The notes under the pieces were generated by a model, which was given only the letters and a program-made list of their open reading frames with translations, was not told the origin of the DNA and searched no databases. The translations under genes and the position numbers were made by a program. From Chthonomonadaceae bacterium (lineage in GTDB: Bacteria > Armatimonadota > Chthonomonadetes > Chthonomonadales > Chthonomonadaceae): 37,326 nt of DNA. Location: positions 1-37,326 of the forward strand of contig DAIDHN010000040.1 of NCBI GenBank assembly GCA_027459665.1. The letters are read 5' to 3'. Of the stretch, positions 11,359 through 26,748 are shown one piece after another. Within the stretch, counting starts at the first letter, position 1. The number at the start of each line of letters is the position of its first letter.

Positions 11359-11444
11359 TTCGGGTGAATAATTCATGTAACATAAAATACGCAGCATGAT
11401 TAAGCAGTACAAAAGCTGTTAATCCATTGTACGGGAGAGTTACC

Positions 11445-12119
11445 ATGCATTGTTATAAAGGCTTATTTGCAGCAAGCGGGCTATTGTTAACTGTCATCGC
11501 CACCCCTGCGCTGGCACAATCGATAAATTCATACACATCCAACACCCTAACCAGTGGCATCACCGTAACAGCCAACAACTCCAAATTCAATGCGGCTACC
11601 CTGTTTGGCCTCAAGGTTGGTTCAACGGTTACTTTCGCCAAAGGAAGCGCCGCTGAATCTGCGGGTGGCACTTTCAATCTGATTGATGTCAGCAAATTTG
11701 TGCTTATTCTTAACCCTGGTACCAACCCAGGCATAACTGCAGACGACACCACCGGACTAACCTCATCGGAAGAAGTTGACACACCCAGCAAGGTAAATCA
11801 ATGGACAGGCATCCCATTTTCTTCTGGCAGCTACCTGGGATGGGATTCTGGCCAGAGTGGATCCGACAAAAGCGGACAATTGCTGCCCAGCACTTCAACA
11901 GGCAACATCTTCCAGCTGTCAGGCATGCTGCCAAAAGGCTACTCTATTCAGTACTTTGGCATGGATATCGCCTGGACTGATCATGGAAGCACTAAAACAG
12001 GCCACGTCATTCTTGGCACACCGCCTCCGCCTGCCCCCGAAACCTCTACCATAGCCGGCTTCGGCTGCCTGGGAGCTGCCAGCCTGCTCGGGCTGCTGCG
12101 CAAACGCCGCCGAGCCTGA
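11445..12119 (+). CDS. PEP-CTERM-like surface/secreted protein
   Basis: 224 aa. The ATG at 11445 has GGGAGAG 6 bp upstream; a TTG 18 bp earlier is less likely. Signal peptide: CYKGLFAASGLLLTVIATPALA. The body is a low-complexity, Ser/Thr/Gly-rich beta-type domain of no family I recognise. The C-terminus has the three-part sorting signal: a Pro-rich APETSTI motif in place of VPEP, a hydrophobic helix (AGFGCLGAASLLGLL) and the basic end RKRRRA. Such proteins are processed by exosortase and often linked to extracellular polysaccharide. No exosortase gene lies in the window. It shares an upstream motif with the pilin gene that follows. Confidence 0.82.
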   Translation: MHCYKGLFAASGLLLTVIATPALAQSINSYTSNTLTSGITVTANNSKFNAATLFGLKVGSTVTFAKGSAAESAGGTFNLIDVSKFVLILNPGTNPGITADDTTGLTSSEEVDTPSKVNQWTGIPFSSGSYLGWDSGQSGSDKSGQLLPSTSTGNIFQLSGMLPKGYSIQYFGMDIAWTDHGSTKTGHVILGTPPPPAPETSTIAGFGCLGAASLLGLLRKRRRA

Positions 12120-24507: not shown

Positions 24508-24537
24508 ATTATTGTACAGGCTCTACTGTACAATAAT
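24508..24537 (+). promoter_or_regulatory. Operator-like 12-bp inverted repeat at the DinB-like promoter
   Basis: ATTATTGTACAG (24508-24519), spacer GCTCTA, CTGTACAATAAT (24526-24537): perfect arms between the -10 and the ribosome site (AGGAAGGGG at about 24541). The location fits repressor binding over the transcription start; alternatively it folds as a 5'-UTR hairpin. Confidence 0.65.
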
Positions 24538-25034: not shown

Positions 25035-25084
25035 TATTCTGCCGTCTCACCACACTTTCACTTCACATATGCCAGTCTCCCTTT

Positions 25085-25123
25085 GCTCTGCAGAGCCAAC
25101 CAGCTTCTGCAGAGCATTTTTTT
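25085..25123 (+). terminator. Rho-independent terminator of the DinB-like gene
   Basis: GCTCTGCAGA (25085-25094) pairs perfectly with TCTGCAGAGC (25106-25115), then ATTTTTTT. Confidence 0.92.
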
Positions 25124-25154
25124 ATTTTGAAACTTCTCAGCTGCGTCAGTCGTA

Positions 25155-25193
25155 ATTTAGTTTGAATTCAAGATATTTGAGTTCAAACTAAAT
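25155..25193 (+). promoter_or_regulatory. Double operator upstream of the MarR-type gene
   Basis: Outer arms ATTTAGTTTGAA (25155-25166) and TTCAAACTAAAT (25182-25193) form a perfect 12-bp inverted repeat. Within it lie two boxes, TTTGAATTCAAG (25161-25172) and TTTGAGTTCAAA (25176-25187), with centres 15 bp apart. Such boxes are the kind bound by MarR dimers, so autoregulation of the operon is likely. They end 17 bp before the ATG. Confidence 0.8.
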
Positions 25194-25209
25194 AGAAAGG
25201 CAGCGAAAA

Positions 25210-25701
25210 ATGGATATACGCGACTACGATGAACAAACCCAAAGTGCGCTCAAACTCTTTGTAGCGCTTTTTCGCTGCTTTCACTCGGTATCAGCACATG
25301 TACGTCAGGATATTGCCAGGTATGGGCTGAGCAGCTCAGAATTTGGAGTGCTGGAAATGCTCTATCACCTCGGCCCCCTGCCGCAGTGTGAAGTGGCACG
25401 CAAGATACTGCTCTCAACAGGTTCGCTTACCTACGTGGTAGACAATCTGGTCGAAAAAAATCTGGTGGAGAGAATTGCCTGTACAAAAGACCGTCGTCGG
25501 CTTTATGCCCAGCTCACGGCTGCCGGAGCCGAAATGATGAAATCCATTTTCCCGGTGCATGCAGAGTTTATACTCAGCACGTTTTCTTCACTCGATCAAG
25601 AGGAACAGAAGCAGCTTGCACTGCTGCTCAAAAAGCTGGGGCGCAGCCTGCAGCCAAACGAAACACCTTCGACACATCAACAACACAACACAGAGGAGTA
25701 A
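25210..25701 (+). CDS. MarR-family transcriptional regulator
   Basis: 163 aa. Long N-terminal helices for dimer formation are followed by the winged helix: LSSSEFGVLEMLYHLGPLPQCEVARKILLSTGSLTYVVDNLVEKNLVER, then the wing RIACTKDRRRLYAQLTAAG (about 41-110). Cysteines are few (C23, C60, C86); any could sense oxidants. The operator lies directly upstream. The gene is followed at 6 bp by a flavodoxin-type oxidoreductase and then a DoxX protein. This order resembles MhqR/YodB-type systems that respond to quinones and other electrophiles in Bacillus and Staphylococcus; specificity here is inferred from context. Start: ATG with GAAAGGCAGCG upstream. Confidence 0.93.
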   Translation: MDIRDYDEQTQSALKLFVALFRCFHSVSAHVRQDIARYGLSSSEFGVLEMLYHLGPLPQCEVARKILLSTGSLTYVVDNLVEKNLVERIACTKDRRRLYAQLTAAGAEMMKSIFPVHAEFILSTFSSLDQEEQKQLALLLKKLGRSLQPNETPSTHQQHNTEE

Positions 25702-25707
25702 CAAATA

Positions 25708-26274
25708 ATGACAAAAGTAGCCATAGTCTTCCATAGCGGATACGGACACACCGCAGCCATTGCAGAAGCCGTACAGCGCGGTGCAGCATCGGTGGCAGGC
25801 ACCGAAGTTAGTCTCATCAAGGCAGCAGAAGCATCTGAACACTGGGAAGAACTAGACAGCGCAGATGCAATTATCTTCGGCAGCCCAACCTACATGGGAA
25901 GCACCGCCGCAGAGATGAAAAAGTTTATGGAAGCAACCAGCGGCAGGTGGATGCATCAGCAGTGGGCCGACAAATTGGCAGCAGGCTTTTCGGTTTCTGC
26001 AAGCTGGAGCGGAGACAAGCTCAACACCCTGTTTGACCTGGCAGTTTTTGCAGCACAGCATAGCATGATTTGGGCAGGACTCAATATTTTGCCCGGTTTC
26101 AACCACAGCAAGGGCAGTATCGATGACCTCAACCGTACAGGGCACGCCATCGGGGTAGGCATTCAGGCGAACGCAGACCAGGGTGCTGAGGGAATAAAGG
26201 AATCTGATTTCAAAACCGCAGAGGCGCTGGGCGCACGCATTGCAGCGCTTGCCGCCCGCTTCAATAAACCATAG
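25708..26274 (+). CDS. Flavodoxin-fold NAD(P)H:quinone oxidoreductase (WrbA-like)
   Basis: 188 aa. FMN-binding P-loop SGYGHT (10-15) after the first beta strand; GSPTYMGSTAAEMKKFME (about 71-88) and SASWSGDKLNTLF hold the second and third flavin loops, as in WrbA and related NADPH-dependent FMN reductases. These enzymes reduce quinones by two electrons and avoid semiquinone radicals. It is 6 bp downstream of the MarR gene, with GAGGAG before the ATG, so it is clearly the target of the double operator. It is slightly shorter than WrbA (about 200 aa). Confidence 0.9.
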   Translation: MTKVAIVFHSGYGHTAAIAEAVQRGAASVAGTEVSLIKAAEASEHWEELDSADAIIFGSPTYMGSTAAEMKKFMEATSGRWMHQQWADKLAAGFSVSASWSGDKLNTLFDLAVFAAQHSMIWAGLNILPGFNHSKGSIDDLNRTGHAIGVGIQANADQGAEGIKESDFKTAEALGARIAALAARFNKP

Positions 26275-26287
26275 GCAGAACTTAGAC

Positions 26288-26692
26288 ATGAAAGAATATA
26301 CACTCTCTCTTCAAAAAGCATCACAGGCGCTGCTGCTTATTCGTATCGCCGCTGCTGCTGCTTTTCTATACCACGGGTACGGAATTGTAAGCAATGCAGC
26401 AGGTTTCGCAGGGTTTGCACACATCCCGGCCGCCCTTGCATGGGTCATCGGGTTGGGTGAGCTGGCTGGTGGCCTGGGCATGCTTACGGGCGTACTGGCA
26501 CGGCCAGCAGCAGCAGGTTTGGCCGTTATTATGCTGGGAGCCATTTTAATGGTGCATTTGAAAAACGGCTTTGATATTACAAAAAACGGCTTTGAATATG
26601 CACTTGCGCAGCTTCTTATCTGTACAGCCGTTATAATCGCCGGATCGGGCAGTCTGGCAGTGAAACTGCCTTCTCAAAACGCAAAAAACTGA
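26288..26692 (+). CDS. DoxX family membrane protein
   Basis: 134 aa, four membrane segments. RIAAAAAFLYHGYGIVSN, LAWVIGLGELAGGLGMLTGVLARPAAAGLAVIMLGAI and HLKNGFDITKNGFEYALAQLL are typical DoxX/MhqP-type motifs. DoxX proteins often accompany oxidoreductases in oxidative and electrophile stress; their chemistry is unclear. The ATG at 26288 comes 13 bp after the flavodoxin stop with a weak ribosome site. It is last in the MarR operon, with a terminator right after it. Confidence 0.9.
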   Translation: MKEYTLSLQKASQALLLIRIAAAAAFLYHGYGIVSNAAGFAGFAHIPAALAWVIGLGELAGGLGMLTGVLARPAAAGLAVIMLGAILMVHLKNGFDITKNGFEYALAQLLICTAVIIAGSGSLAVKLPSQNAKN

Positions 26693-26705: not shown

Positions 26706-26748
26706 CTGCCCCTTCTGCTGCCGTGAGCAGAAGGGGCAGTGCTTTTGT
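26706..26748 (+). terminator. Terminator of the MarR-flavodoxin-DoxX operon
   Basis: CTGCCCCTTCTGCT (26706-26719) pairs perfectly with AGCAGAAGGGGCAG (26726-26739), followed by TGCTTTTGTTT. Confidence 0.88.

Follow-up and report, generated by a model that had tools for sequence, protein, structure and literature searches.

A probable autoregulated MhqR-type quinone-response operon with an overlapping double operator outside the Bacilli

Quinone sensing by the MarR-family repressor MhqR is known experimentally from Bacillus and Staphylococcus. The S. aureus operator, TATCTCGAA-aTCGAaATA, is conserved in B. subtilis, and the known MhqR regulons contain dioxygenases, azoreductases and nitroreductases rather than WrbA (PMC6798810). 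In the S. aureus protein (SaMhqR) the quinone pocket is formed by F11, F39, E43 and H111, of which F11, F39 and H111 are needed for sensing in vivo (PMC12893000). The window analysed here, a whole stretch of 37,326 nucleotides from a Chthonomonadaceae bacterium, contains a tight three-gene operon (MarR, WrbA-like flavodoxin, DoxX) with one terminator on each side. Quite probably it is a quinone-response operon of the MhqR type that is autoregulated, a reading that would extend MhqR quinone sensing to another lineage with both pocket and operator conserved, and would link this sensing to WrbA-like flavoproteins, to DoxX and, in relatives, to Dps. The features of the locus are as follows.

25084 to 25127, plus strand: intrinsic terminator of the upstream DinB-family gene, an 11-nt perfect stem followed by a T tract (inverted repeat, folding energy)
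25155 to 25193, no strand assigned: putative composite operator, an overlapping pair of MhqR-like boxes whose centres are 15 nt apart (inverted repeat, box matches)
25158 to 25175, no strand assigned: predicted MhqR-like box 1, TAGTTTGAATTCAAGATA (top site of the Bacilli-derived matrix; identical 18-mer in L046)
25173 to 25190, no strand assigned: predicted MhqR-like box 2, ATATTTGAGTTCAAACTA, weaker, 15 nt after box 1 (sequence match)
25195 to 25201, plus strand: probable ribosome-binding site, purine-rich AAAGG, 5' of the MarR start codon (sequence)
25210 to 25701, plus strand: MhqR-type MarR repressor P0001, 163 aa (Pfam MarR/MarR_2, homology, tree)
25708 to 26274, plus strand: WrbA-like flavodoxin P0002, 188 aa, probable NAD(P)H:quinone reductase (flavodoxin/FMN_red domains)
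26288 to 26692, plus strand: DoxX-family membrane protein, 134 aa (DoxX domain)
26706 to 26739, plus strand: intrinsic terminator of the operon (terminator scan; z -5.8)

The MarR gene stops at 25701, 6 bp before the ATG of the WrbA-like gene at 25708, which itself stops at 26274, 13 bp before the DoxX ATG at 26288. The preliminary description had given this gene order and these gaps, which are exact; the two terminators that it placed around the unit were likewise recovered, one as the hairpin 25084-25116 plus its T tract (-21.8 kcal/mol, z -7.1; its loop exceeds the length that the terminator scan accepts) and the other at 26706-26739. Just 5' of the DinB-family gene, at 24508-24537, there is a perfect 12-nt inverted repeat, ATTATTGTACAG/CTGTACAATAAT, that is not terminator-like and is possibly another operator. 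Elsewhere in the window, 11427-12119 encodes a secreted protein whose C-terminal tail, LLGLLRKRRRA, resembles a sorting signal; no family match was found for this protein.

The closest solved structure to P0001 is S. aureus MhqR (9QDR/9SMZ, E 2.5e-23; the next best match is 3e-11), and this homology to a solved structure answers the question of its fold. The protein is 42% identical to a B. velezensis MarR encoded beside motA, motB and clpE, the place that ykvE/mhqR occupies in B. subtilis. When the B. velezensis protein was searched back against the genome of the window, P0001 was the best match (3.2e-31, against 2.5e-9 for the next MarR), so that the two are reciprocal best matches. In a tree of 61 proteins, whose placement of two very long-branched paralogues is unreliable, P0001 and its close relatives form a single clade (98/100) with Gemmatimonadota proteins, Bacilli MhqR and SaMhqR, while the other MarRs of the window's phylum fall outside it. 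Reciprocal best match and clade thus both assign P0001 to the MhqR orthologues. MarRs from across the phylum at 37-44% identity (L014-L034) were considered as further orthologues and rejected: they carry Q at position 44 and mostly N71/N72 rather than G/S, and lie outside the MhqR clade. Assignment to the YodB/QsrR (DUF24) type was also rejected, there being no HxlR match in Pfam and no Cys among residues 1 to 20. The MhqR half of the MhqR and YodB logic first proposed for this locus has held, whereas YodB, of the DUF24/HxlR type, is not the relevant relative. Judged by its homology, P0001 is an MhqR-type repressor and a new member of this family outside the Bacilli.

All four SaMhqR pocket residues are identical in the alignment, F11/F39/E43/H111 corresponding to F17/F45/E49/H117 of P0001. 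H117 is invariant in the nine close homologues and in 79/79 Bacilli homologues, in which F45 is also F in 79/79 and E49 is E in 76/79; two alignable paralogues from the same genome have none of F45, E49 and H117. Positions 17 and 49 vary among the close relatives (W/L and Q/D, respectively), so members of the group may not all have exactly the same ligand. The SaMhqR allosteric loop S65/S66 and its base-reading Y69 align to G71, S72 and Y75, and the G at position 71, where SaMhqR has S65, is found in 75 of the 79 Bacilli homologues as well. The wing of P0001 also contains a cysteine, C91 (25480-25482), which P0001 shares with 9/9 close homologues, 3/3 Gemmatimonadota proteins and 58/79 Bacilli homologues. 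Such conservation would suit a thiol-based electrophile or oxidant sensor of the OhrR or YodB type, in which alkylation or oxidation of Cys91 releases the DNA. We nevertheless regard this as distinctly improbable: SaMhqR, which has no such Cys, is inactivated through a mechanism that does not involve thiols (PMC6798810), 21 of the 79 Bacilli homologues have Ser at this position, and the ligand pocket is conserved. A thiol or redox contribution of C91 to an MhqR-type sensor is possible.

The putative operator is an inverted repeat whose 17-nt arms (25155-25171 and 25177-25193) are 94% complementary, with one mismatch, around a 5-nt loop. Its score is 14.5, whereas the best repeat in 30 shuffled windows, permuted in 3-base blocks, reached 12, and the remaining strong inverted repeats of the window look terminator-like. 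Just as initially described, the outer 12 nt are perfect and enclose two TTGANTTCAA boxes 15 nt apart; TTTGANTTCAA occurs without mismatch in the 37-kb window only at 25161 and 25176, the same spacing. A weight matrix was derived from 12 distinct boxes that the known-operator pattern had picked out of Bacilli mhqR loci, the window's phylum contributing none. Its top site in the window is 25158-25175, with a score of 20.6 where the second-best site has 4.3; box 2 scores weakly (8.4, with capped weights). Box 1, TAGTTTGAATTCAAGATA, is a degenerate form of the MhqR operator TATCT[C/T]GAATTC[G/A]AGATA, and the degenerate match to the 9-9 bp operator TATCTCGAATTCGAGATA at the same position is the strongest of the window. 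Moreover, the 18-mer recurs letter for letter upstream of mhqR in a Bacillus (L046), about 256 nt 5' of the MarR match. Because of this identity and the matrix ranking, the original claim of a box unlike that of Bacillus is unsupported. A search of the genome with two patterns gave no convincing MhqR box besides the operon's own; the best match beyond these, G000:C25:49268, is not placed like a promoter of any neighbouring gene, and no regulon is therefore claimed. The literature searched, of partial coverage, gave nothing relevant on TTTGAATTCAA with MarR. In the relative G041 (L131:1501-1518; G041:C522:5160) a near-perfect MhqR-like box, TATCATGATTTCAAGATA, with 1 mismatch, lies away from the marR locus and inside a 348-aa open frame.

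The paired arrangement is found in the Bacilli too. Of the 69 Bacilli mhqR promoters that have a strong box, 18 carry another one at an offset of exactly 15 nt. The set was picked by similarity to the query, so that its frequencies are not estimates for all Bacilli, and the 18 are mutually related rather than independent events. Shuffling the flanks of the 69 promoters gave a mean of 0.24 with a 15-nt second box, and 18 was reached in 0/100 shuffles; since the matrix slightly penalises overlap of two boxes at this offset, the recurrence is not due to self-overlap. Several tandem promoters, for example TATCTTTAAATCAAGATAATTAACTTAAAGATA in L050 and L074, share the 17-5-17 shape of the repeat in the window. 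In view of the 18 promoters, the earlier description of the operator as unusual is not supported. Our search of the literature, of partial coverage, found no description of a tandem 15-nt MhqR operator. The nearly perfect 17-5-17 symmetry could also mean that the operator is one long palindrome, occupied once around its GATAT centre, rather than two overlapping boxes. This seems very unlikely, given that box 1 by itself matches the MhqR operator, that single-box promoters are common in Bacilli and one relative (L009) has only the box TACTTTGAATTCAAAGTA, and that tandem Bacilli promoters hold the 15-nt offset without full overall symmetry. With two boxes, a separation of 15 bp, about 1.4 helical turns, would put the two dimers on almost opposite sides of the helix. 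There is perhaps an even chance that the fixed pair is a conserved cooperative operator variant, found both in Paenibacillus-type Bacilli and in this non-Bacillota lineage, in which dimers so placed make the quinone response sharper. As a regulatory feature, the overlapping double operator with its recurrent 15-nt offset is simple and testable.

Eight genomes from the family or the phylum of the window encode close homologues of P0001 (40-56% identity). The preliminary description had made its reading depend on conservation of the boxes in relatives, and MhqR-like boxes are indeed kept 5' of the unit in seven of the eight (L006 and L008 to L013); the upstream region of L007 has no clear box. 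In L006 the box TATCTTGATTTCAAGATA is preceded by a weaker one 15 nt before it, L008 has three box-like sites 5' of the MarR gene (about 1411-1463, at offsets -35, -20 and 0 from the best), and L011 has TAGTTTGACTTCGAGATA. MarR, WrbA and DoxX occur together in L010 to L013, in the order MarR-WrbA-DoxX or, as in L011, MarR-DoxX-WrbA. L009 has MarR-WrbA with a flavodoxin 74% identical, and the flavodoxins of L006 and L008 are more distant. Three relatives of the same family have the extended order dps-marR-wrbA-doxX (L010, 922-3052; L012, 231-2369; L013, 354-2490), with an MhqR-like box 5' of dps, 44-61 nt from its start codon, which suggests that Dps may join the quinone response in these relatives.

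With respect to its cargo, the operon has a WrbA-like flavoprotein and neither a dioxygenase nor an azoreductase. P0002 falls below the NCBIfam cut-offs for WrbA itself (72.9 against 132.5 bits for TIGR01755 and 85.9 against 141 for NF002999); its best solved relative, 3D7N (E 5.9e-39), is annotated as WrbA-like. WrbA-like flavodoxins follow some Bacilli mhqR genes (L044, L077, L114) and DoxX-like genes follow others (L047, L052, L054), so these genes are associated outside the lineage of the window as well. At the WrbA homologues of G118, G027 and G083 neither a MarR neighbour nor a convincing box was found, and the literature, partially covered, has only passing co-mentions of MhqR or MarR with DoxX. 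Since MarR pockets evolve quickly, and F17 and E49 vary among close relatives, an MhqR-fold MarR could respond to some other phenolic or aromatic inducer, for example a plant-wall phenolic set free near the genes for sugars and glycosidases, in which case WrbA and DoxX would belong to some pathway that is not quinone detoxification; the window does contain glycoside-degradation genes. We think this unlikely, as P0001 keeps the complete pocket, WrbA-like enzymes are quinone reductases, and the dps gene in the operon of three relatives fits redox stress.

We therefore favor the MhqR-type quinone response, for which the operon layout, the MhqR homology, the pocket conservation and the identity and recurrence of the boxes can be read directly from the sequences; what we infer is the DNA binding, its inducer, the activity of the enzyme and what DoxX does. 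Several points weigh against this reading: the weak matrix score of box 2, the different enzymes of the known MhqR regulons, the WrbA scores below the cut-offs, G71 in place of S65, the variation at positions 17 and 49 among close relatives, and L007 with no clear box. Without inducer, MarR/MhqR dimers on both overlapping boxes (25158-25190) would mask the promoter or the start region. On entering the F17/F45/E49/H117 pocket, a quinone or hydroquinone would, by analogy with SaMhqR, keep helix alpha-4 from extending into its DNA-binding form, so that the dimers leave. Repressor, WrbA-like flavoprotein and DoxX membrane protein would then be made together, and the flavoprotein would presumably carry out the two-electron reduction of quinone to hydroquinone. 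The quinone part of the quinone/electrophile sensor unit first proposed is thus well supported by an MhqR homologue with a complete pocket, but not the different box and unusual operator that went with it.

Among the described systems, YodB, QsrR and CatR are quinone-responsive and control quinone reductases, as in our reading, but these are thiol-based DUF24 proteins, whereas P0001 groups with classical MarR/MhqR. B. subtilis MhqR (YkvE) and its relatives have in common with the P0001 system the recognition-helix motif LLxxGSxTYVVD and the operator core; the B. subtilis protein controls scattered targets (azoR2, mhqNOP, mhqED, mhqA), whereas here only the adjacent operon has a convincing box. 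In S. aureus mhqRED, as here, the repressor gene is first in an operon that it probably controls itself, through a palindromic operator of the same family; its cargo is the dioxygenase MhqE and the hydrolase MhqD in place of a WrbA-like flavoprotein and DoxX, and its operator is a single 9-9 site rather than an overlapping pair. For that pair the closest parallel is found in the mhqR promoters of Paenibacillus and its relatives (L050, L074, L086, L092, L104), which have an overlapping double box with the exact 15-nt offset of the window and in some cases a DoxX-like gene just 3', as in the window operon, although their outer half-sites are TATCTT/AAGATA and those of the window TAGTTT/AAACTA.
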